IMG/VR virus record: IMGVR_UViG_3300049473_000237 | Span: 1-24,327 of that record | Direction: 5' to 3' (one strand) | Length of the DNA: 24,327 nucleotides | Source of the DNA: a virus | In this document: positions 1 through 13,178 of the stretch, piece after piece | How the letters are laid out: every line of letters starts with the position of its first letter | Position numbering within the stretch: the stretch's first letter is position 1 | Made by a program: the position numbers and the translations under genes | Notes under the pieces: generated by a model | What the model saw: the letters and a program-made list of their open reading frames with translations, nothing else | The model's database searches: none | Told to the model about the DNA's origin: nothing

Positions 1-216
1 CTCCGAGACCTTCTTCACGAACATCCGCACGGTGCGGTCGTTGACCTCGTCATCGTCCACCGCGTAGCCCCGCTCCTTGCTACCGTAGGCTTGGAACTTC
101 GAGGCGTAGGAGTACTTGCCTGCGCACCCGCACATGCAGCGGCCAGGCTTCCCTGAGTACACCTTGATGACCTTCTCGACGTTGATGCTGGGTTTGTTCA
201 CTCTCTCTTCTTGCAT
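1..216 (-). CDS. Small Cys-rich phage protein, 3' end beyond window
   Basis: The reading frame starts at an ATG at complement(214..216) and stays open for 72 codons to the window edge, so the C-terminus is missing. The start follows AGAAAGGAGAAAGACA, the same leader seen before the next gene upstream. The protein carries GRCMCGCAGKYSYAS (C-x-C-x-C) at about residues 27-41, followed by an acidic stretch (VDDDEVNDR). I recognise this CxCGCAGK arrangement from small conserved phage proteins of unknown function; the clustered cysteines could bind metal, which is inference. It lies 14 bp downstream of the 90-aa gene in the same leftward operon. Confidence 0.75.
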   Translation of the reverse strand, partial: MQEERVNKPSINVEKVIKVYSGKPGRCMCGCAGKYSYASKFQAYGSKERGYAVDDDEVNDRTVRMFVKKVSE

Positions 217-230
217 TGTCTTTCTCCTTT

Positions 231-503
231 CTACTCTTGGTCTTCTTTCCACCACACGCTCTTGTCGGCCACGTAGTCCACCAGGAAATAGGCGCTCGCG
301 TGGTGGGGGTTGTTGCTGTCGAACTCGAGGAACTCGATGCCCCTTATGTCCTCGAGGGCTATACCAGCGTCTTTTGCCTCGGCCCTGAACACGCGCAGGG
401 CCTCGTTGGTGTCCTTCTCGCACAGGTCGAAGCAGTCGTCCTCTCCGTACTTCTCCATGTAGTCGCTCACGCTCAGGGTGATCTCGTCTTTGAATCTCTC
501 CAT
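231..503 (-). CDS. Hypothetical acidic small early protein (90 aa)
   Basis: This is the first gene of the leftward operon. Its ATG is preceded by GCGAGAAAGGAGAAAGACA, a very strong ribosome-binding site, and the predicted promoter lies about 40 bp upstream. The protein is rich in Asp and Glu and has no recognisable domain, signal peptide or membrane segment. A function cannot be assigned. Its position immediately next to the divergent control region suggests it is expressed early or acts in host takeover, but that rests on position alone. Confidence 0.8.
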   Translation of the reverse strand: MERFKDEITLSVSDYMEKYGEDDCFDLCEKDTNEALRVFRAEAKDAGIALEDIRGIEFLEFDSNNPHHASAYFLVDYVADKSVWWKEDQE

Positions 504-541
504 TGTCTTTCTCCTTTCTCGCAGGTTGTACCTATTATATA

Positions 542-558
542 TGCAGCTTCTGCGCCAA
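542..558 (-). promoter_or_regulatory. Sigma-54-like promoter core, leftward
   Basis: The minus strand reads TTGGCGCAGAAGCTGCA. This has TGGC and TGC in the -24/-12 arrangement, GG-N10-GC, with one mismatch in each half from TGGCAC-N5-TTGCA. A TATAAT lies just downstream at complement(534..539), but no proper -35 sits 16-18 bp before it. The predicted start near 531 would give a leader of about 28 nt containing the ribosome-binding site of the 90-aa gene. The same block recurs on the opposite strand at 854-870. YuA phage is known to use host sigma-54 promoters, which makes the reading plausible but not proven. Confidence 0.5.
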
Positions 559-654
559 CTTTACCGCGCACGGCCGAAAATAAAAGCCAGCGATTCTAAG
601 GGCTTGCGACGACCTGGCGCCGCCTCGGGCGGCCGACGGGCGTGAAAAGCGGCG

Positions 655-684
655 ATTTTTGTCACACATGGACAATTTTTGTCA
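655..684. promoter_or_regulatory. Operator-like cluster of TTGTC/GACAA half-sites
   Basis: ATTTTTGTCA occurs exactly twice, at 655-664 and 675-684, 20 bp apart (about two helical turns). Between them lies the inverted repeat TTGTC-N7-GACAA (659-675). The overlapping GACAATTTTTGTC (671-683) is a perfect palindrome with a 3-bp centre. Three alternating half-sites of this kind resemble a binding site for a dimeric helix-turn-helix regulator. No regulator gene that would bind it can be identified in the window. Confidence 0.5.
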
Positions 685-691
685 TAGCCTA

Positions 692-827
692 CAAGCACCT
701 GATAACACTGAGGAAAGAGGGCCTATGCGGCGGGGACTGCGGCAAAAACTGCCGCTTTTCGGCGCAGTGGGCACTGCTTAGCACCCGGCGCCAGGTCGTC
801 GCAAGTGCCTGAGATCACTGAGGAAAG
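692..827 (+). repeat. 26-bp imperfect direct repeat, 110 bp apart
   Basis: Positions 692-717 and 802-827 match at 22 of 26 bases. They share CAAG, CCTGA and CACTGAGGAAAG. The second copy overlaps the end of the right 20-bp box (802-805). There is no such copy on the left flank, so this element breaks the symmetry of the region and may serve only the rightward promoter. Its function is unknown. Confidence 0.65.
739..759 (+). terminator. Short hairpin with T4 tail inside control region
   Basis: GCGGCA (739-744) pairs with TGCCGC (750-755) around an AAAAC loop, followed by TTTT. The shape is that of a small intrinsic terminator or attenuator reading rightward. Overlapping alternative stems exist: ACTGCG at 736-741 with CGCAGT at 763-768, and GCAGT at 764-768 with ACTGC at 773-777. 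It also coincides with the right arm of the 18-bp inverted repeat, so it may be a protein site rather than an RNA structure. Confidence 0.35.
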
Positions 828-853
828 CCAAAAAATGTTGGCCTGATGCAGAG

Positions 854-870
854 TTGGCGCGGTTCCTGCA
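854..870 (+). promoter_or_regulatory. Sigma-54-like promoter core, rightward
   Basis: The sequence TTGGCGCGGTTCCTGCA has GG at 856-857 and GC at 868-869, exactly ten bases apart, as in sigma-54 promoters. It matches the leftward block at 13 of 17 positions, with all of TTGGCGC and CTGCA conserved. TATAAT follows at 871-876. An alternative sigma-70 reading pairs TTGGCG (854-859) with TATAGT (876-881) at 16-bp spacing, but that spacing is not preserved in the leftward copy. The predicted start near 880 leaves about 30 nt before the ATG at 910. Confidence 0.5.
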
Positions 871-909
871 TATAATATAGTCAACTACCAACGCAAAGGA
901 GCAAGGAAC

Positions 910-1137
910 ATGGCACAACGAATCAACGAAAAAATGAGGGACCCTGAGAGCCTGATCGGAGACGAGAGGGGCTGTGTGACCATGCACTGCACCCACGGGC
1001 ACATGGTCGGCTACCTGGCCCTGAAGGACGCCGCCCGCTTCGTGGCGAAAGGGTGGGCATACGTGCTGACCACCTCCGACTGCGTCGAGTACGAGTGCGG
1101 CTGCGGCAAAAGCCCCAGCAATTGCGTGGAGTTCTAA
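910..1137 (+). CDS. Hypothetical Cys/His-rich small protein (75 aa)
   Basis: This is the first gene of the rightward operon. Its ATG follows AAAGGAGCAAGGAAC and lies about 40 bp after the promoter block. Cysteines and histidines cluster at residues 22-31 (CVTMHCTHGH) and near the C-terminus (CVEYECGCGKSPSNC). This suggests a small metal-binding fold, but no family is recognised. It is followed by a 71-bp AT-richer gap before the next start. Confidence 0.8.
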   Translation: MAQRINEKMRDPESLIGDERGCVTMHCTHGHMVGYLALKDAARFVAKGWAYVLTTSDCVEYECGCGKSPSNCVEF

Positions 1138-1208: not shown

Positions 1209-2009
1209 ATGCACAAGCACCACGAGACATCAGCCCCCGTCGACACGTCACTCAAGGAGATCGAGCGCCTGATGGAGGCGGACCGCCTCCGGCAGCAGAA
1301 GTTCGAGGCCAAGGCGTACGCGAAGGGTATGCGCTGGGCAGTGGATGCCTGCATCCACCCCGAGCAGGGCGGCGACGACCGGAGCATCACCATCTACTTT
1401 AACGTGGAGCCGACCGAGGGGGACATCAGGAAGCACCTCAAGAAGCAGCGCAGCTGCCGGCTCGACGACCACGGCGCCCCGAGAGAACTAAAAGACCCCA
1501 ACAATATAGAAGGAGACAAGACCATGACGACGAAACAGAAGCTCGCCGAACTGAACAGGCTGCGCGCAGCCAATAACATGAACCCCCTAAAGGCCTGGAA
1601 ACAGTCCGTTGCCAAGCTCGATGCCGCCATCAATGCCCTGAACTTCGAGGGCGGCGCGGCCGTCGAGGAGGAAGAGCAGAAGGTCGCGACGGACCCGAAG
1701 CCTGAGCAGCCCAAGGCTGAACCGCCGAAACAGAAGAAAGGCGTATCGAGGAAGGCCGAAGGGCCGACCGTGCGCGAGGTCGCCGAGCGCCTGATACTCG
1801 AGAAGGACGCGGACGGCCAGGGACTCCCCTACAGCGAGATACTGCGGCGCATCTTCGTCCAATTCCCGAAGGCTAAGACCTCGATCGCGTGCCTGCGGTG
1901 GTACGCCACCCACATGCGGACCGACAGGGGCATCCGCGTCCCCGACCGCCCCAACTCCAAGAATCCCCAGCGTGAACTGGCCAAAATCGCCGCAAAGAAG
2001 GGGGAGTAG
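1209..2009 (+). CDS. Phage protein with C-terminal winged-helix-like domain; possible two-gene fusion
   Basis: The ATG at 1209 follows CGAGAAAGGAGAAAGACC and opens a frame of 266 codons. Residues 1-90 are charged and helical with no known domain. A second ATG at 1524 (residue 106) lies in the same frame behind GAAGGAG. From there the protein reads like an independent phage protein, with a helical N-terminus, a Pro/Lys/Glu-rich linker, and a C-terminal domain around TVREVAERLI...PYSEIL...AKTSIACLRWYATHMR that resembles winged-helix DNA-binding folds. The bases just before 1524 look intergenic, and a TAA lies in the +1 frame at about 1487-1490. Either one long protein, two products from one frame, or an old frameshift fusion is possible. 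Nucleoid-like or regulatory DNA binding is inferred. Confidence 0.65.
   Translation: MHKHHETSAPVDTSLKEIERLMEADRLRQQKFEAKAYAKGMRWAVDACIHPEQGGDDRSITIYFNVEPTEGDIRKHLKKQRSCRLDDHGAPRELKDPNNIEGDKTMTTKQKLAELNRLRAANNMNPLKAWKQSVAKLDAAINALNFEGGAAVEEEEQKVATDPKPEQPKAEPPKQKKGVSRKAEGPTVREVAERLILEKDADGQGLPYSEILRRIFVQFPKAKTSIACLRWYATHMRTDRGIRVPDRPNSKNPQRELAKIAAKKGE
1524..2009 (+). CDS. Alternative start: 161-aa winged-helix-like protein
   Basis: This is the C-terminal part of the preceding entry, starting at the internal ATG. The ribosome-binding site GAAGGAG (1509-1515) is 8 bases upstream, as good as any in the operon. The new N-terminus (MTTKQKLAELNRLRAANN) looks like a natural beginning, and the whole protein has a coherent layout of helix, charged linker and C-terminal domain. 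I regard this as at least as likely to be the main product as the 266-aa form. Confidence 0.5.
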   Translation: MTTKQKLAELNRLRAANNMNPLKAWKQSVAKLDAAINALNFEGGAAVEEEEQKVATDPKPEQPKAEPPKQKKGVSRKAEGPTVREVAERLILEKDADGQGLPYSEILRRIFVQFPKAKTSIACLRWYATHMRTDRGIRVPDRPNSKNPQRELAKIAAKKGE

Positions 2010-4792: not shown

Positions 4793-5437
4793 TCATACCG
4801 CCAGGCCCGGCGTCCACGCCGCGCCGTCCCAGAGCGAGAACACGTCCTCGTCGACAATGTAGGCGCGCAGCCCCGTCTCAGGCGTGTGGAAGTGCCAGGA
4901 CGGCGAGCCCTCGCCAGGGGACTGCCACCACACGGCGACCTCGTCCTCGTGACCCGCCCAGTCGCCGGTCGCGGTCGCGGCCGGGACGTAGGCATCGCCG
5001 ACCGAGGGCGAGCCCGGGGGCGCCGTCAGGTCGCGGTCGAGCACCGACAGCCTGGAGATCTTGGCCTCCCAGGCGTGGTCCAGCGGGATGCCACTGTGCC
5101 ACGCGCTGCCGTCCCACGCGACGATCGCGTTCTCGTCCTCCACCGGCATCGCGAAGCCCCTGTGGGGCGCGTAGAATGTCCAGGCAGAGTCCGCCGACAC
5201 CCACACGGCCACGTCGTCCTCGTGCCCGGCCCAGAGGCCGGTCGCGGCGGGCCCGACTATGTAGGCGTCACCGTCGGTGGGCGTGCCGGGCGGCGTCGAG
5301 ACAGCGCGGCTGACCGCCGAGAGGTAGAGCAGCAGCCCCACCTTCTTGAGGTTCCCGTTCATGTTGGTGTGCCAGTTGTCGTCACCCAATACCCAGTCGT
5401 ACCACAGCCCGTTCCTGGGCTCCTGCTTGACTGCCAT
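4793..5437 (-). CDS. Tail protein with two tandem DUF2793 units
   Basis: The 214-aa protein contains two copies of the same unit of about 75 residues. Each begins PPG(T/S)P(T/S).GDAY, continues with GxWAGHED(D/E)VAVW, and ends with (I/F)xxWDGxAWxxG. The units span about residues 48-117 and 138-212. This matches DUF2793, found in fibre or tail-tip accessory proteins of phages, with beta-rich repeats that probably form an exposed trimeric shaft or head. It starts just after the J-like gene behind GGAGGAGTGTAAG. A role in host contact is inferred. Confidence 0.75.
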   Translation of the reverse strand: MAVKQEPRNGLWYDWVLGDDNWHTNMNGNLKKVGLLLYLSAVSRAVSTPPGTPTDGDAYIVGPAATGLWAGHEDDVAVWVSADSAWTFYAPHRGFAMPVEDENAIVAWDGSAWHSGIPLDHAWEAKISRLSVLDRDLTAPPGSPSVGDAYVPAATATGDWAGHEDEVAVWWQSPGEGSPSWHFHTPETGLRAYIVDEDVFSLWDGAAWTPGLAV

Positions 5438-5438
5438 C

Positions 5439-8276
5439 TTACACTCCTCCGTAGTACTCGCCGAAGCGGTAGCCGAAGCCGGCCCTGTCGGCGGTGTGGT
5501 CGCAGTCCATCCTCGAGTCCTCGCCGGTCCGGACGGTGGTCAGTGTCGCCCTGAGCTCGGAGTTGAGCCTCTGCTCCGGCCACACGTCGGCGGCGGTGAG
5601 CAGCGACCCCCAGAAGCCGAGCCTGTGGATGTCTGCGGTCAGGTACTTGTCCCTCGTCGCCGCGCCGGACCACCCGGCGCCGACGGCCCAGGGCTTGCCT
5701 GCCATCGATCCTATGACGGTGTTGACGGTCGCCTGCCCCGTCTGCGCGCCGTCCATGTAGACAGTCACCCTCGACTGCCCAGGTGCGGGCGCGTCCTTCT
5801 CGACCGTCACGAGGAAGTAGTGGTCGCGCGTCCAGTCTACCGTGCCGCCGAGGTTGCCTGAGCTGAGACCGCCGGGGCCGATGTAGACACACACATAGCC
5901 GCTGTTGAGCTCGAGGGCGAGTATGTTCGCGCCGGCCGCCGTGGACTTGTCGGCGACCGTGTTCGCCGCGCCCGAAGGGTAGCTCCCCCCGCGGACGCCG
6001 AACACTACGGAGATGGTCTCCCCGATGTCGATGTCCTCGACGTCCATGTAGCCGGTCCCCGGGAACTCGGCGAAGTCGCCGTCGAAGGCCACGTCCGTGA
6101 CGTTCGACGCCCACCCGACTGTCTGAGCAGGCCCCTCGACCCTCGCGTTCGTGTCGAGGGGGAGGAGGAAGTCGTGCGTGTCGACTGGCGCGTACACCCA
6201 TATGTCCGAGTCAGCGAGCTCGTCCGTCCAGGACTGCGAGAGACCGGACACACCGGAGTATGTCCTGAGGGGCGTCGTTACGAGGTCCCTCTCGCCGTAC
6301 AGCTTCGCGGTGTACGTCGTGCCGACCTCAGGCCCGATCGAGCCGTCGAAGTGGTCGACGATCGGCCGCACGTCCTGGAGTGTCCTGTCGCGGTGCACCC
6401 AGGTGAGGTCGAGCACGCCCGTGATGACCGACGGGTAATAGGCGGAGTTGAATGCAAACCTGCCCGCGGGGTACGGCTTGAAGAACCGGCCCGTGAAGAC
6501 GATGTTCTCGGTGGACGCGGAGGCGACGTCGAGCTCGCCTTTGCCGGTCACGGGTGTGACCCGCACGTCGAGGTCCTCCGTCGGGAGGTACGGCGTCACA
6601 TCACTGCCGCCCTTGAGCTCGGCGAACCATACCCTCGTCCCGGACGCGTGCTCGAGCGGCGCTGAGTCGAGGCAGCCGCGCCCGATGTCGATCGTGTTGA
6701 GGACGCCGTCAATGGCGTCTATGCGGACCACCTCCTGGCCTATGTAGGCGTAGTAGCCAGTAGCTATATCATCGACGAACCACGGGAGAGCGGATATAGC
6801 TATGCCGGTCTCCTGCGTCTTGTCGAGGTCCTGTGCGAGCAGGATGGTCGGCGGGTAGACGCCCTGGGCGACTTTTGCGAAGGTGCCCGTCCCCGCTGGG
6901 TCCGTCCATATGCCATAGCTGGAGCTTGCCACACTCGGCTCCCTCGCGAGGGCGTGGAGGTAGCAGTCGTTGTCCTCCACGTAGGCGAAGTCGGCCGGCG
7001 AGAGCTGCATCTTGAGGTCCCAGTATGGTACCTCCTCGAGGCGGAGCTCTGGGGCCGGAACGGGGTCGCCGACGGGGTCGGTCCACAGGGAGTCCTGCGG
7101 CGTCGAGTAGTTGGATGACGGCACGCCGAATATATCCTCGACGGCATTGATCTCGATGTCGCCCTTCGTCATGTTGCCGTAGTTGAGCGACATAGCTCTC
7201 ATCACGACCTGGTCTATGCCCTTGGGGGCCCACGTGAGCACGAATGGGTCCCCGGGGTTGAGATCCCACGCGTCCCTGTTGGCCACTATCCTCGCCTTCG
7301 CGAGGGGCGTCGAGTTCTGCTTGAGCTCGCGGATGCCTATGACTGAGGCATTCGCCGCACTGTCGATGCCGGGGTACTGGAGTGTCTGCGAGATGACCGA
7401 GCCCTGCGCCTGCACGGACGCCAGGTCCTGGAACGTGGCGGCGGCATCGGAGAATGCGCCCTGCGGTCTGTAGATGATGACGACCTCGTTGATCATCTCG
7501 CCGTACGTGGGCCGCTGGAAAGACGCGAGCTCCTTCACGTTCGAGGTGTCGAATACCGGCAGGTCACCTATGACGTAGTCCTCGCGCGTGAGCTTGAGCA
7601 CGAACTTACCGGTCAGGCGGTCCGTATAGAGGACGCCGTTGATGTGCCTGAGCACCTGCTGTATGAACTCCTCCACCGAGCCCTGTCCTGAGAGGAGCAT
7701 GGAGATACCGAGCCCCTCGTCATGAAGCGTGTCGGCGGCGGCCTTGAACGATGCGTCGTCGATGGCCGTGAAGGGATAGCCCATGCCCCAGTCTGTGTCT
7801 GTGATCGCCTCGTAGATTATGTGCGCGCCGTTCGCGGAGAGACCGATGGCGGCCTTGGCTCCATACCAGTCTTTAGCTGGAAAGCGCCTCACGAGGGCCG
7901 CCCATGGCTTCGGGTAAGGGCTCATCGCGCAGACATAGCACTTGTTGAGGACGAGCGAGACGACACCGCGATAGGCTGGTATGTCAGGGCCGAGCTGGCT
8001 TGCGAGGTATGTGTTAACTGGCTGGTATGGCTCCCCGCCAAGGACATCGACCCAGCCGTAGATGCCCCCCTCCTTCTTCTCGCCGCCGAACAGGTTCGGG
8101 GCATTCACGAGGATGCGGCCGCTCCCGGACACTGACCCGATCCAGGCCTGCCTCTCGCCAACATAGATGGCGCTGAGGTAGTCGACCGGGCCGTGGCAGA
8201 AGACTATGTGCATGCCGAGATAGTACTTGTACCCGATGACCTGACTGCCACCACCACCCTTGCCACCTCCGCCCAT
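5439..8276 (-). CDS. J-like central tail tip/fibre protein with C-terminal LamG-like domain
   Basis: The 945-aa protein begins with a glycine-rich MGGGGKGGGG stretch followed by GYKYYLGMHIVFCHGPVDYL, the characteristic start of D3112/YuA-type tail-tip proteins. Residues of about 170-330 correspond to the Phage-tail_3 region. The C-terminal part (about 719-898), with VYMDGAQTGQATV, DIHRLGFWG and a jelly-roll-like strand pattern, resembles LamG/concanavalin domains that bind sugars. The gene lies after the hub genes and before the DUF2793 protein, as expected for the receptor-contacting tip. The LamG assignment is by pattern and is less certain than the J-like call. Confidence 0.85.
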   Translation of the reverse strand: MGGGGKGGGGSQVIGYKYYLGMHIVFCHGPVDYLSAIYVGERQAWIGSVSGSGRILVNAPNLFGGEKKEGGIYGWVDVLGGEPYQPVNTYLASQLGPDIPAYRGVVSLVLNKCYVCAMSPYPKPWAALVRRFPAKDWYGAKAAIGLSANGAHIIYEAITDTDWGMGYPFTAIDDASFKAAADTLHDEGLGISMLLSGQGSVEEFIQQVLRHINGVLYTDRLTGKFVLKLTREDYVIGDLPVFDTSNVKELASFQRPTYGEMINEVVIIYRPQGAFSDAAATFQDLASVQAQGSVISQTLQYPGIDSAANASVIGIRELKQNSTPLAKARIVANRDAWDLNPGDPFVLTWAPKGIDQVVMRAMSLNYGNMTKGDIEINAVEDIFGVPSSNYSTPQDSLWTDPVGDPVPAPELRLEEVPYWDLKMQLSPADFAYVEDNDCYLHALAREPSVASSSYGIWTDPAGTGTFAKVAQGVYPPTILLAQDLDKTQETGIAISALPWFVDDIATGYYAYIGQEVVRIDAIDGVLNTIDIGRGCLDSAPLEHASGTRVWFAELKGGSDVTPYLPTEDLDVRVTPVTGKGELDVASASTENIVFTGRFFKPYPAGRFAFNSAYYPSVITGVLDLTWVHRDRTLQDVRPIVDHFDGSIGPEVGTTYTAKLYGERDLVTTPLRTYSGVSGLSQSWTDELADSDIWVYAPVDTHDFLLPLDTNARVEGPAQTVGWASNVTDVAFDGDFAEFPGTGYMDVEDIDIGETISVVFGVRGGSYPSGAANTVADKSTAAGANILALELNSGYVCVYIGPGGLSSGNLGGTVDWTRDHYFLVTVEKDAPAPGQSRVTVYMDGAQTGQATVNTVIGSMAGKPWAVGAGWSGAATRDKYLTADIHRLGFWGSLLTAADVWPEQRLNSELRATLTTVRTGEDSRMDCDHTADRAGFGYRFGEYYGGV

Positions 8277-8277
8277 A

Positions 8278-8472
8278 TCAGGCCTCCTCTTCCTTGCGCG
8301 CGGCCTCCACCATCCGAGCCATGTAGTGGTTGCCAGTGGCCGTCAGCTGCTCCTCCGGGAGGCCCCTCAGGAAGAACTCCCTGAAGTCGAGCCCGTACCT
8401 CTCGCAGTGCCTCTTTATCCCGCGCGAGCAGTAGCCGCACAGCCTCGCGTGCTTCTTAGTTATGGTAGTCAT
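8278..8472 (-). CDS. Small conserved tail-tip-cluster protein (64 aa)
   Basis: The chosen ATG at complement(8470..8472) sits one base after the previous stop (TGATATG). A longer version with six extra residues is possible but would overlap the neighbour. The protein reads ...HARLCGYCSRGIKRHCERYGLDFREFF..GLPEEQLTATG. I recognise this GYCxxGxR...GLDxxxFxxxG(I/L)PEExLxATG pattern from small genes placed next to J-like genes in many siphoviruses. Function is unknown. It may be an assembly factor for the tail tip, judged by location only. Confidence 0.8.
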   Translation of the reverse strand: MTTITKKHARLCGYCSRGIKRHCERYGLDFREFFLRGLPEEQLTATGNHYMARMVEAARKEEEA

Positions 8473-8473
8473 A

Positions 8474-8710
8474 TCACTTGCCTCCTCCACTCGACCTGAC
8501 CTCCTGGTAGCCGAGGTCGCCGTACCAGACCACGTTCGGGCTCCTCACGAGGTACGTCCCGAATACGACGGGGATCGGCCTCCCCTGCTCGGCCGTCGGC
8601 GCCTGGACGTCCTTGAGCGTCGGCGGCACCGGCTCCGGCGCCTTCGGCGAGACCGCGTAGCAAGCGGCGACGACCGCGATGACGAGCACTACAACAAACC
8701 ACCAGACCAT
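8474..8710 (-). CDS. Small membrane or lipoprotein-like tail-cluster protein (78 aa)
   Basis: The ATG follows AAGGAGGAAGGAGT. Residues 1-17 are strongly hydrophobic and end in VVAAC, which fits a lipobox, though the usual positive charges before it are missing. The rest (APTAEQGRPIPVVFGTYLVRSPNVVWYGDL) matches a motif conserved in small proteins beside J-like genes. The hydrophobic start would place it in the membrane or mark it as a lipoprotein. Roles in tip assembly or in altering the host envelope are both conceivable; I cannot choose. Confidence 0.75.
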   Translation of the reverse strand: MVWWFVVVLVIAVVAACYAVSPKAPEPVPPTLKDVQAPTAEQGRPIPVVFGTYLVRSPNVVWYGDLGYQEVRSSGGGK

Positions 8711-8723
8711 ACTCCTTCCTCCT

Positions 8724-9539
8724 TCAGAATATCGGTGTCCCCCCCATGGGGTTCTTCTGGGGTATGTAGGGGAAGCCGCCGTAGTTCACGTTGTTCGAGA
8801 ACTTCGTCACGCACGTATCCAGCGAATGGTCGCAGCCCGGGTATGCCGTCACGCTCAGCCCGACCGCGGCCCCCTGTAGCGGCAGCCCGGTTGTCAGCGT
8901 GTCGCCCACGTGGTTCACTATGAAGGCCCGGTTCACATTGCCGCTGATTGTGACCTCGACGAAGCCCCCCGCGAAGTACGCGTCCGTGTAGCCCGCGAAG
9001 GTCGCCGACTTGAGGGTGACCCCCGACGTCCCCGCTGAGAGCGCGGCCGTGATGCCGAAGGTCGCCTTGGCGATGCCGCACTCCTGACCATACAGCAGGT
9101 GTGGGCATGATGTCTGATACACCCTGCGCAGCGTCGGCCTCTTCAGCGACGAGATCGCCGACTCACACAGGATGATGGCCTCAAACTCCCTGTGCTCCAC
9201 GTTCACCACGCGACCCACCCAGAGGAAGGCGATCTCCGAGTCCTGATAGTGGTACCTGCGGACTTCGACCATTATCCTGTCCGTCGGCGGCGAGGCGATG
9301 AACTGCTCGGGGAAGTCCGCGTCCGCCGGCATCGTGATCTTGAGCGCCGTCCTCTCGACGTCCTGGCTCCCCTCTATATCGTTGCGCTTTATCGGTGCAG
9401 CCAGGTATATATCGCCACCAAGGACTACATCCCTGTCGGCCGAAGTATAGCGCCAGATACGTATGCCCTCGCGGTCAAACTTGTAGACCTCGACGGGCTC
9501 GCCGCTGTATTCACTCTTCTCCCTCGCGTCGTACGTCAA
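8724..9539 (-). CDS. Baseplate hub protein, DUF2163/phage BR0599 family
   Basis: The frame has no ATG near its natural beginning. The start is taken as TTG at complement(9537..9539), overlapping the previous TGA and eight bases after AAAGGAG. The 271-aa protein has an N-terminal DUF2163 part and the BR0599 C-terminal signature, with TSCPHLLYGQECG and later PGCDHSLDTCVTKFSNN plus NYGGFPYIPQKNP. Cysteines 145, 154, 236 and 243 are the family's conserved set. Lambda gpL, which occupies the same tail-tip position, binds an iron-sulphur cluster through cysteines, so metal binding is plausible here. The protein should connect the tail tube end to the J-like tip. Confidence 0.85.
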   Translation of the reverse strand: MTYDAREKSEYSGEPVEVYKFDREGIRIWRYTSADRDVVLGGDIYLAAPIKRNDIEGSQDVERTALKITMPADADFPEQFIASPPTDRIMVEVRRYHYQDSEIAFLWVGRVVNVEHREFEAIILCESAISSLKRPTLRRVYQTSCPHLLYGQECGIAKATFGITAALSAGTSGVTLKSATFAGYTDAYFAGGFVEVTISGNVNRAFIVNHVGDTLTTGLPLQGAAVGLSVTAYPGCDHSLDTCVTKFSNNVNYGGFPYIPQKNPMGGTPIF

Positions 9540-11212
9540 TGCTCGATCTCCTTTATCGGGACCTTGGTCAGCGCAACGTTGTTCGCCATCCACGTGAACG
9601 ACAGGCGGTCGGAGTCGAGCCGCTTGAGCCCGACGAAGCTGACCTCGTCTATGTCTGCCGCGTCGACATTCAGCGCCGAGTCCATCGTGATGGACATACT
9701 GCCGCCCGGGAGGTTCTCGACGCCGGTCACCGTCCTGAAGACGTACGACCCGTCGGCCTTGAGCCGGAAGGCCAGGTGGTTGCGCTCGGAGCCCTGGTTG
9801 ACGTAGTTGTTCTGGGCGGCCTCGAAGGAGTCGTCGATGTTCCCCTCCGACAGGATCGTGAAGTTGTTCTCGTAGGTCGTCATGTAGAACGGGCGGAGCC
9901 TGCCGGCGCGCCGGTGGAGCCACATGCGGTGCTCCCAGACCTGCTCGAGCCCCTCGAGCACGAGCTCGAAGCTCCGGATGATCTTTATGTGGTCCCAGGG
10001 CGCATACTGCTGCACCACCCCCACCCCGTAGTCGAGCGTCTCGATCCTGTGCTCGTACTCGTCGTCGAGGCCGTCACCGCCTTCCTCGTAGAGGGGCGTC
10101 ATGTCGTAGAAGTCCTCCCCGAGGAACTGGATGTCGCTCGGGTCGGGGTCGAAGTACGTGTTGTCGGTCACCTCCAGGTCGGCGGAGAGCACGCCGTCGT
10201 AGCCGCTCGTGGTCCGCACGGGGTCCCTCGTCATCCGCGCCGACCTGACGGGCATGATGACCGGGGATGCGTAGTCGTCGCCCGCCCCGCGGTAGAGCGT
10301 GATCTCGTCGTCCGTGAGGCCGGCGATCTGGAAGACGTCGAACTTGGTCGGACTCTCCCATATAACGGCGAGGCCGTCCACGCGGAAGTCGCCCCACCTG
10401 GTGTCGACGTCGATGGTCAAGTCCCCCTGTGTCACTGGCGAGTCGGCCGGCCTCGCCTCGATCCACATGGGCACGGCCCATATGCGCTTCCGCCACCCGA
10501 TCAGGAGGTTCTCCACGTTGTTGCGGTCCGCGCGGTCGAGGTAGGCCCTGACCTTGAGCTGCTGCCTCGGCGAGCGCCGGAGCCGTACCCTCTGCTCGTC
10601 CCCGGCGTAAGCAACCATGATGTCCGTCTTCCACACGAGCGTCTCGACCACCCTGCTCCGGAAGGTGACGGGCAGGAGCACGATCCTCGAGCCGACTATG
10701 CCGACCGTGATCTCGAGACCGAGCGCCGCCCAGTTGAAGTCGATGCTCGCGGCTATCTGCGGCGGGCCGGACAGGTTGGCGGTCAGCGTGTACGTCGTCT
10801 CCTGCAGGGGGAAGTAGTACATCGGGGGGGCGCTCCCGCCGGCGAGGCTCATGCCGCTGTCGAAGCTGTTCTCGTCCACGCTGCTCAGCGTCTGACCCGT
10901 GAGGTAGCCGTTGAAGACGAGGATGTCCCTCTGCTGCTCGTTCACTATGGACCCCAGGTCGATGTAGACAGGCTCGACGAGGATGCGGTTGTAGAAGACG
11001 GTGTTCACGCCCGGCGCCACTGTGCCAGAGAAGACGGCCCCCCTGAGCGCGATGGGCTGCGTGTTCGTGAAGGCGCCGTGCGCCGCGTTCGCGCCGACGA
11101 GGTGGGCCTCGCCGGTCGGCGTCCAAGTCCCCACAGTCGAGAGCCAGGCCGGGCGCCCTGAGTAGGCCCCGTAGAGGGCCGCCGGACCGAGGTATCCGTT
11201 GAAGGTGGTCAC
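9536..11212 (-). CDS. Tail tip/distal tail structural protein (558 aa)
   Basis: The start is GTG at complement(11210..11212), one base after the previous stop and six bases after AGGAGGG. The protein is beta-rich, has no catalytic motif, and contains WRKRIWAVPMWIEARPAD (about residues 240-257) and RPFYMTTYENNF (about 430-441). I recognise it as the large tail-tip protein that precedes DUF2163 in YuA/D3112-like phages. A distal-tail or baseplate-wedge role fits its place between the tape-measure block and the hub. The exact function is not proven by sequence alone. Confidence 0.7.
   Translation of the reverse strand: MTTFNGYLGPAALYGAYSGRPAWLSTVGTWTPTGEAHLVGANAAHGAFTNTQPIALRGAVFSGTVAPGVNTVFYNRILVEPVYIDLGSIVNEQQRDILVFNGYLTGQTLSSVDENSFDSGMSLAGGSAPPMYYFPLQETTYTLTANLSGPPQIAASIDFNWAALGLEITVGIVGSRIVLLPVTFRSRVVETLVWKTDIMVAYAGDEQRVRLRRSPRQQLKVRAYLDRADRNNVENLLIGWRKRIWAVPMWIEARPADSPVTQGDLTIDVDTRWGDFRVDGLAVIWESPTKFDVFQIAGLTDDEITLYRGAGDDYASPVIMPVRSARMTRDPVRTTSGYDGVLSADLEVTDNTYFDPDPSDIQFLGEDFYDMTPLYEEGGDGLDDEYEHRIETLDYGVGVVQQYAPWDHIKIIRSFELVLEGLEQVWEHRMWLHRRAGRLRPFYMTTYENNFTILSEGNIDDSFEAAQNNYVNQGSERNHLAFRLKADGSYVFRTVTGVENLPGGSMSITMDSALNVDAADIDEVSFVGLKRLDSDRLSFTWMANNVALTKVPIKEIEH
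9548..9554 (-). promoter_or_regulatory. Ribosome-binding site deciding a TTG start
   Basis: AAAGGAG on the minus strand, eight bases before the TTG of the DUF2163 hub gene. It lies inside the end of the 558-aa gene. No ATG or GTG at suitable spacing exists, so this site is the main evidence for the TTG start. Confidence 0.7.
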
Positions 11213-11213
11213 G

Positions 11214-12188
11214 TCACGCCCTCCTGTAGGCCAGGGCTATGTTCTCCGTGATCGGTGCGACCGTCTTGTCCCCGTACTTTTGGATGATCGGGAAGACCTC
11301 CCACTCAACCTCGACTATGTCCTTCGGGGTGATGACCTCCATGTTGAGGAACTTCACGTGGTCCGCGTAGCCGGCGAGGAACAGCCCGTTGAGCGTCTCC
11401 TCGTGGAGCATGAGGTACTGCGGGATCATGACGGCCCTCTGGTTGACTGAGTTGGCCTCGCACCAGAACAGCGGGCCGGCGAGGACCTGGTTGTAGATCC
11501 CGTAGGAGTCACTCAGGCTGCCGACCGTCATGAACCGGGCGAACTGGTTGTTAGACTCGGAGCTCCTGATGGGCGCCCAGTCCCTGTAGTCCCCGAGGGC
11601 CCCGTAGGGGTAGTACACGTGGCCCTGGTAGGAACTCGAGTTGTTGCCGCCCTCGAAGGGCACGGTCCCGGACTGGAACTCGTAGCCGACCGCGCCGGAG
11701 GCCGTCCAGTTCGTCGAGTACCAGGCGGTCGTGTACTCCCCGCCCGTCCAGGTCCCGAACTTCGTGACCTTGCCGAAGGAGAGGTGCGAGAAGACGTTCG
11801 CGGTCGTCTCTATGACCGCGTGGACGCAGCTCCCGTCCGTGAAGAAGTTGTAGGCCGTATAGGGCCCAGTGACGGTCCTCCAGAGCTGTGCCCTCGTTAT
11901 CTGGTTCGGGCCGACCGAGGTGTCCGCGTAGTTGGTGTTCGTCGGGAGCGCCGTCTGGGCGCGGAAGGCGATGTAGCCGTCGTCCGCGCCGCCGATTGTC
12001 TGCTTGGAGCCGAAGAAGTACCAGTACATGCCCCCCTTTGAGAGGCGGTACATGTACGTCGTCGTGGCGCCGCCGGGCGGGGCGGCGTTCCCCTCGTCGG
12101 CGAAGCCGGCATTGGCTACAGCCCAGTCGACGAGGTCCTGGAGGAGGTCGTCGAGCGTCGCCGCGGGTACGGGTCCTGAGTATGCCAT
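11214..12188 (-). CDS. Tail structural protein, conserved in YuA/D3112-type phages (324 aa)
   Basis: The ATG follows GAGGGAGGAAGAC, twelve bases after the previous stop. The protein has a short N-terminal helix (LDDLLQDLVDWA) and then a beta-rich body with HLSFGKVTKFGTWTGGEYTTAWY (about residues 135-157), a pattern I know from virion proteins encoded after the tape measure in this phage group. There is no enzyme motif. It is the same size as its upstream neighbour and shares its general layout, so an old duplication is possible, but identity is low. Confidence 0.7.
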   Translation of the reverse strand: MAYSGPVPAATLDDLLQDLVDWAVANAGFADEGNAAPPGGATTTYMYRLSKGGMYWYFFGSKQTIGGADDGYIAFRAQTALPTNTNYADTSVGPNQITRAQLWRTVTGPYTAYNFFTDGSCVHAVIETTANVFSHLSFGKVTKFGTWTGGEYTTAWYSTNWTASGAVGYEFQSGTVPFEGGNNSSSYQGHVYYPYGALGDYRDWAPIRSSESNNQFARFMTVGSLSDSYGIYNQVLAGPLFWCEANSVNQRAVMIPQYLMLHEETLNGLFLAGYADHVKFLNMEVITPKDIVEVEWEVFPIIQKYGDKTVAPITENIALAYRRA

Positions 12189-12200
12189 GTCTTCCTCCCT

Positions 12201-13178
12201 CTAATCGAGCCTTATGGCGGCGTAGTCGTGCCTCGCCGTCTTGTCCACGTTCTGCACCACCAGGTAGTCGACGGCGGCTATCTGGACGGTGTCCTCCGAG
12301 AGCGGGTTCACGACCGGGCTGAGCCCCGGCACGTAGAAGACGCCGTCGACCTCGCCGTAGACGTTCCCGCCGTCGAAGCCGCTGAACAGCGTCGCCGGCA
12401 ACAGGGCGAAGGTCCCGTCCGGGTGCCCGATATGCTGGTATGCCGCGTTGTGCTGCACGATCGGGCCCCACGGCCACGTCACAAAATAGGCGGCCGTCGA
12501 GAGGCTCGAGTACGCCTGGCAGTAGAGCCACTGTCCGTCCCTGTGGCGGAACATCGCCGGGCTGTAGTTGGTCGGGCTCCAGAAGTTGGAGATGTACACG
12601 GAGCTCGTCGGCAGCGCGTTGATGTTGTTGGTCACCGCCGACACCAGCAGCGGGTAGGGGTACTCGCTCGGGAGGGCATACGGGAGTATGAGCCCGCCGT
12701 GCATGAGGTAGAAGTCCCCGCTGATCTTGCATATCAGGATGAAGCGCCGACCGTTGGCCACGATCCAGTACTCTATCGTGCTGTTGGTCAGCGTCAGGTA
12801 CAGGAAGTTGTTGCTGTACCAGCTGTTGTTAGGCTGTCTGTGCCAGGGGACCCCGCCGTCGTAGCCCGTCGCGCCCTGCACCATCCAGTTTGAGATGCCC
12901 TGCGTCGGCGCCTCGTACGTCCTGATGTTCACGTGGACCTCGTCCGTCCCCGCGAGCCCCGGGCCCTGGAGGTACAGGTCCCTGAACGTGGCCCCGAAGC
13001 CGCCCGAGGGGGTGTTGACCGTCGGCGTGGTCATGGTATACGAGGCGATGGTCTCGTCCTTCAGCGCCGTCCACTCCTCGCTGGCGGCCACCAGGTCGGC
13101 GTCCGTCGTCAGGAACGTCTTCAGCGCGTCGAGCAGGTTGAGGTGCCCCGTCACTGTGCCCGTTGCCCAAGCTGTCAT
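12201..13178 (-). CDS. Tail structural protein, conserved in YuA/D3112-type phages (325 aa)
   Basis: First gene after the tape measure, with its ATG nine bases after the TMP stop and AGGAGGG between. The N-terminus (LLDALKTFLTTDADLVAA) and the stretches YLQGPGLAGTDEVHVNIRTYE and WIVANGRRFILICKISG are typical of a conserved virion protein family in these phages. It is rich in aromatic residues and beta strands. A part in the distal tail is likely from gene order; no biochemical role can be read from the sequence. Confidence 0.75.
   Translation of the reverse strand: MTAWATGTVTGHLNLLDALKTFLTTDADLVAASEEWTALKDETIASYTMTTPTVNTPSGGFGATFRDLYLQGPGLAGTDEVHVNIRTYEAPTQGISNWMVQGATGYDGGVPWHRQPNNSWYSNNFLYLTLTNSTIEYWIVANGRRFILICKISGDFYLMHGGLILPYALPSEYPYPLLVSAVTNNINALPTSSVYISNFWSPTNYSPAMFRHRDGQWLYCQAYSSLSTAAYFVTWPWGPIVQHNAAYQHIGHPDGTFALLPATLFSGFDGGNVYGEVDGVFYVPGLSPVVNPLSEDTVQIAAVDYLVVQNVDKTARHDYAAIRLD

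Follow-up and report, generated by a model that had tools for sequence, protein, structure and literature searches.

Positions 504-909 of the 24,327-bp virus record IMGVR_UViG_3300049473_000237 (the whole stretch of DNA analyzed; referred to as the window) were found to be an imperfect inverted duplication: local alignment of the right arm with the reverse-complemented left arm scored 88, whereas 1000 dinucleotide shuffles averaged 21.8 and never exceeded 37. This region is probably a bidirectional promoter, in which inverted and diverged copies of one module, aided by an activator, would turn on the operons on both sides together, with sigma-54 as the favored polymerase partner.

The record, to which no taxonomy is attached, is a contig that covers part of a YuA-like siphophage genome. 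From ~3.5 kb rightward, the minus strand carries siphophage genes for structure and lysis, coding for an endolysin-type M15 peptidase, a DUF2793 tail fibre, a tail protein, and members of the tape measure, chaperone, and tail terminator families. Across 72% of its length, the tail protein shared ~50% identity with those of YuA, M6, MP1412, and their relatives. This homologous tail/structural module places the window among the YuA-like siphophages (Mesyanzhinovviridae), and its source is a bacteriophage with Pseudomonas phage YuA as a distant relative. Polymerase and capsid genes, the basis for a phylogeny at the family level, were not recognised in the fragment. The rightward operon g3-g8 (910 to ~3.25 kb) converges on the minus-strand structural/lysis module, two short leftward genes (g2 and g1) extend off the left end of the contig, and g2 and g3 enclose the control region (504-909). 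The genes referred to below are:

1-216, minus strand: g1, the second leftward gene, which runs off the contig and matches phrog_24766 (unknown function; E 6e-12)
231-503, minus strand: g2 (90 aa, function unassigned), the first gene left of the control region, an ORF with a ribosome-binding site and high GC3
910-1137, plus strand: g3 (75 aa, function unassigned), the first gene right of the control region
1524-2009, plus strand: g5, the third gene of the rightward operon, of a family conserved in Mesyanzhinovviridae-type phages; helical, with a possible DNA-binding C-terminal domain

No convincing family was found for g2 (a single weak phage match, E 0.03), a search for relatives of g3 found none, and protein scans with both as queries returned nothing. 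A near-identical translation-start element of 19-22 nt (AGAAAGGAGAAAGACMATG-like) was seen upstream of g1, g2, and g4 (214-232, 501-519, and 1190-1211, respectively). At 2049-2122 on the minus strand, a sub-threshold Rfam match to CcsR1 (24 bits vs a gathering score of 65) fell within coding sequence and is probably due to chance.

The elements of the control region were as follows, with box centers given relative to the predicted transcription starts:

532-560, minus strand: left promoter core, with TTGGCGCAGAAGCTGCA at 542-558 and TATAAT at 534-539; start predicted at ~531 if of the sigma-54 type
603-622, minus strand: left outer box, CGGCGCCAGGTCGTCGCAAG, centered at ~-82; perfect inverted copy of 786-805
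644-661, minus strand: left inner box, CAAAAATCGCCGCTTTTC, centered at ~-122; 16/18 inverted copy of 743-760
655-684, plus strand: two ATTTTTGTCA words, 20 bp apart (655-664 and 675-684); unmirrored, possible operator
692-717, plus strand: central copy of CAAGnnCCTGAnAnCACTGAGGAAAG, a direct repeat of 802-827
743-760, plus strand: right inner box, CAAAAACTGCCGCTTTTC, centered at ~-130
786-805, plus strand: right outer box, CGGCGCCAGGTCGTCGCAAG, centered at ~-85
802-827, plus strand: right copy of CAAGnnCCTGAnAnCACTGAGGAAAG; a partial inverted copy adjoins the left outer box in the left arm
852-880, plus strand: right promoter core, with TTGGCGCGGTTCCTGCA at 854-870 and TATAAT at 871-876; start predicted at ~881 if of the sigma-54 type

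The original prediction had described a perfect 20-bp inverted repeat and a nested 18-bp one with dyad centers at 704 and 702, boxes 21 and 25 bp apart, and promoter blocks ~43 and 47 bp from the outer boxes, and all of these values were reproduced. The 20-bp repeat was the only site of the window within three mismatches (~0.01 expected), and perfect inverted repeats of at least 18 nt with arms 60-400 nt apart occurred at only a handful of loci in 2.45 Mb of other phage-related sequence. The symmetry extended beyond what had been claimed, to the promoter cores and the ribosome-binding sites. Identity between the arms was 16/18 in the inner box, 20/20 in the outer box, 11/15 in the element following the outer box, 23/29 in the promoter core, and 7/9 in the ribosome-binding site, and the spacers between the conserved blocks were eroded to ~50% (~12/25 and 15/31) and could be aligned only with gaps. 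Discrete conserved blocks separated by such spacers are the pattern of selected sites, and the region resembles the remains of an old inverted duplication, these sites having survived. As for the idea that one cassette had been copied in inverted form to drive two operons together, the anatomy (mirrored modules upstream of two divergent genes) agreed with it, and the joint drive may be supposed from this layout.

Both cores read TTGGCGC-N5-CTGCA, and GG-N10-GC was exact in both, the sequence between being free to vary. With GG and GC separated by 10 nt within YTGGCACGRNNNTTGCW as the standard, both cores had this spacing, and they matched the long sigma-54 consensus at 12/14 and 11/14 and the plain consensus at 10/12 and 9/12 positions. 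When ~48,600 positions of the window were scanned with a weight matrix, the weights of which were approximate and were drafted after the sites had been seen, the cores ranked first and second as -24/-12-like sites (14.8 and 13.7; the next site, 8.6); by plain consensus counts, the right core ranked first and the left core was tied second. The matrix score of the cores was reached at 31 sites in 1.1 Mb of high-GC phage-related loci, with only one divergent pair within 500 bp, indicating that the pair is unusual and single sites are not. Starts predicted from the -12 GC fell at ~531 and ~881, and the outer (~-82 and ~-85) and inner boxes (~-122 and ~-130) thus became candidate enhancers by position (~80-150 bp upstream), in agreement with the distances first proposed (~80-85 and ~120-130 bp); no known activator consensus was recognised in them. 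Of the assignment to sigma-54, the resemblance of the cores to -24/-12 elements was supported, and use of sigma-54 is putative, since TATAAT is present in both arms and the same matrix gave low scores to the three annotated sigma-54 fragments of YuA.

TATAAT occurred exactly twice in the 24,327 bp, once per core, which keeps a sigma-70 reading open: TATAAT would be the -10 element of promoters that lack a usable -35, and an activator of phage or host origin, bound at the mirrored boxes, would recruit ordinary sigma-70 polymerase in both directions. With hexamers 16-18 nt apart as the standard, the right arm contained TTGGCG-N16-TATAGT (9/12) and the left arm had no equivalent. YuA is annotated with putative sigma-70 promoters requiring a phage cofactor; however, its 28-bp repeats (CTTTACTTCTTCGG...) belonged to a different motif. 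The distance from box to core differed between the arms by ~4 bp, and such a shift, close to half a turn, is unfavorable for direct polymerase contact. Since the distance from TATAAT to TTGGCGC also shifted by 2 nt between the arms, whereas GG-N10-GC was fixed, sigma-54 with an enhancer-binding activator is the favored polymerase form of the putative switch, and recruitment of sigma-70 polymerase appears rather doubtful. The 29-bp cores might, on the other hand, be read by a single-subunit RNA polymerase of the phage type or by another phage-specific sigma factor instead of a host sigma, in line with such a long conserved block (23/29) immediately upstream of genes. Promoters of phage polymerases normally recur across the late module, but there was no further copy of the core in 20 kb of late genes, the next-best core-like sites were weak, and no such polymerase is annotated in YuA, making this very improbable.

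The nested inverted repeats may also have a structural role, forming a large hairpin or cruciform or binding an initiator at a replication origin, with the promoters being incidental. The coincident dyad centers and the iteron-like ATTGYGGC repeats noticed by inspection in the divergent regions of Rhodobacter phages (see below) fit such a role, as does folding of the strand, which was better than that of shuffles (DNA, z -4.4; RNA, z -6.0); however, any inverted repeat folds well, and the fold energy is not independent evidence. An origin or hairpin is unlikely because the symmetry runs on through the promoter cores and ribosome-binding sites, which would be superfluous for it; moreover, neither tandem iterons in the control region nor a replication gene anywhere in the 24,327-bp window could be recognised. 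Inverted chimaeras do arise in amplified metagenomes, but they are near-identical, whereas the arms of the window have diverged in their spacers and flank different genes; with chance symmetry excluded by the shuffles, an assembly or amplification artefact is barely conceivable. The mirror is real, and its reading as a switch that would turn both gene sets on together is the simplest one.

The statement that every box was duplicated in inverted orientation was too strong, since the TTGTC dyads at 659-683 and the direct repeat (692-717/802-827) lay off the symmetry. The ATTTTTGTCA pair built two dyads, TTGTC-N7-GACAA (659-675) and GACAA-N3-TTGTC (671-683), each of which occurred once in the window (0.0 expected); placed on one side of the center, these are candidate operators. 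The two copies of CAAGnnCCTGAnAnCACTGAGGAAAG were identical at 22/26 positions, and none of 300 shuffles was as good (maximum, 19). On the plus strand only, two short frames, MRRGLRQKLPLFGAVGTA (725-781) and MLA (835-846), each following a repeated ACTGAGGAAAG, resembled leader peptides, and a possible central rightward promoter for them was seen at TTGTCA (679-684) and GATAAC (701-706). A search of Rfam returned nothing relevant within the control region.

Neither boxes nor cores were found at a comparable place in any other sequence searched, and the symmetry was likewise absent from more distant relatives whose rightward operon is homologous. When IMG/VR was scanned for exact matches to 18 nt of the outer box, two were obtained, both judged to be chance: one resembled a terminase coding region, and the other had no box pair or similar surroundings. 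The 13 matches to the core pattern all lay within open frames and were likewise attributed to chance, and none of seven divergent sigma-54-like pairs at the same spacing was accompanied by a long inverted repeat. Relatives were obtained in scans with the tail protein and endolysin, and the control region was present in none of these loci. The only close relative found, a 9.6-kb contig (L090; IMGVR_UViG_3300031371_000031) with ~75% nucleotide identity to positions 5166-12987 of the window (7.9 kb), stops at the lysis end, short of the control region. At 459 aa, its tail fibre gene has double the length of that of the window (214 aa).

YuA (Mesyanzhinovviridae, Yuavirus; AM749441) is the same structural kind of phage, and three of its promoter fragments are annotated as active, with a -24/-12 consensus and measured activity. 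In contrast to the window, the sigma-54 promoters of YuA are single, lie within the structural region on one strand with no mirrored divergent pair, and receive low scores from the matrix by which the cores of the window stood out. Divergent sigma-54 pairs with shared enhancers and known activators are found in bacteria: hyc/hyp of Escherichia coli with FhlA and flbG/flaN of Caulobacter with FlbD. These pairs resemble the window in that two sigma-54-type cores face outward from intervening activator sites (candidate sites in the window), an arrangement for co-expression, but differ in that the whole module of the window, including the ribosome-binding site, is duplicated in inverted form. In the A2b/A3 region of phi29, protein p4 represses one side and activates the other at sigma-A promoters. 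Although inverted sites between divergent phage promoters switch two transcription programmes there, a likeness to the window, the two sides of the window are mirror copies, suggesting an equal response in both directions.

The family of g5 was widespread among Mesyanzhinovviridae-type phages. In DLP4 and PaMx74, the operon with the g5 homologue converged on lysis genes as in the window, but was preceded by DNA-metabolism genes on the same strand. In RcSimone-Hastad, the g5 homologue was third in an operon starting at a 653-bp divergent region (L210:5747-6399), and RcRudolph (OP009285) had a like arrangement if the ends of the record join. Although a divergent region thus heads the rightward operon in these Rhodobacter phages as in the window, their arms were not mirrored (scores of 21-22, vs the shuffle mean of 21.8 for window 504-909), and neither the outer box, the inner box, the core, nor any strong sigma-54-like site was found in the two regions. 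By these comparisons, no regulatory sequence was shared with the window; words common to both, such as CTGGGGAAAG, were marginal (equalled in 43-70 of 1000 shuffles) and were set aside, CTGGGGAAAG itself (43/1000) being suggestive. The divergent start of the operon may be old and the mirrored module particular to the group of phages to which the window belongs. The Rhodobacter divergent regions (L210:5747-6402 and the ends of OP009285) shared ~70% identity over 390 bp and carried, in addition to the iteron-like repeats, duplicated GCTGGGGAAAGATGGGGCC elements; they are possible origins or control regions.

The g5 protein represents a two-part phage family, the C-terminal domain of which occurred at two places in many records (in L210, at 7001-7528 and 5510-5746). 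By inspection, this domain forms a stand-alone small protein (gene 61) across the control region of RcSimone-Hastad and is thus present on both sides of it. A single-sequence model of g5 contained helices at 83-92, 103-113, and 121-130 with moderate confidence; neither the model of g5 nor that of g6 was good enough to assign a fold, and fold searches gave nothing reliable. A role of g5 as a DNA-binding trans factor would be a guess.

The proposed mechanism involves an outward-reading module (inner box, outer box, promoter core, and ribosome-binding site) present as two old inverted copies. An activator bound to the outer boxes, and possibly to the inner boxes, would aid host RNA polymerase, and transcription would proceed outward from ~531 and ~881, so that the leftward (g2, g1, ...) and rightward (g3-g8) operons are turned on simultaneously. 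The unmirrored TTGTC dyads near the center may constitute a repressor operator and a second level of control. A more specific proposal, which we advance tentatively, is that a sigma-54 control region duplicated in mirror image starts both opposed operons of the phage, that its 20-bp boxes are enhancers to which a phage or host activator binds, that the phage programme is thereby tied to a host signal read by RpoN, and that this region arose by inverted duplication of a promoter together with its enhancers.

Most phages use sigma-70-type promoters or promoters of their own. If the proposal is true, host sigma-54 control of the paired operons would couple infection to nutritional or envelope signals via RpoN. 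The two arms also provide a comparison of kept bases within one genome (20/20 in the outer box and GG-N10-GC in the core) where no close relative covers the region, and the bases kept in both arms are precise targets for mutation and binding tests.
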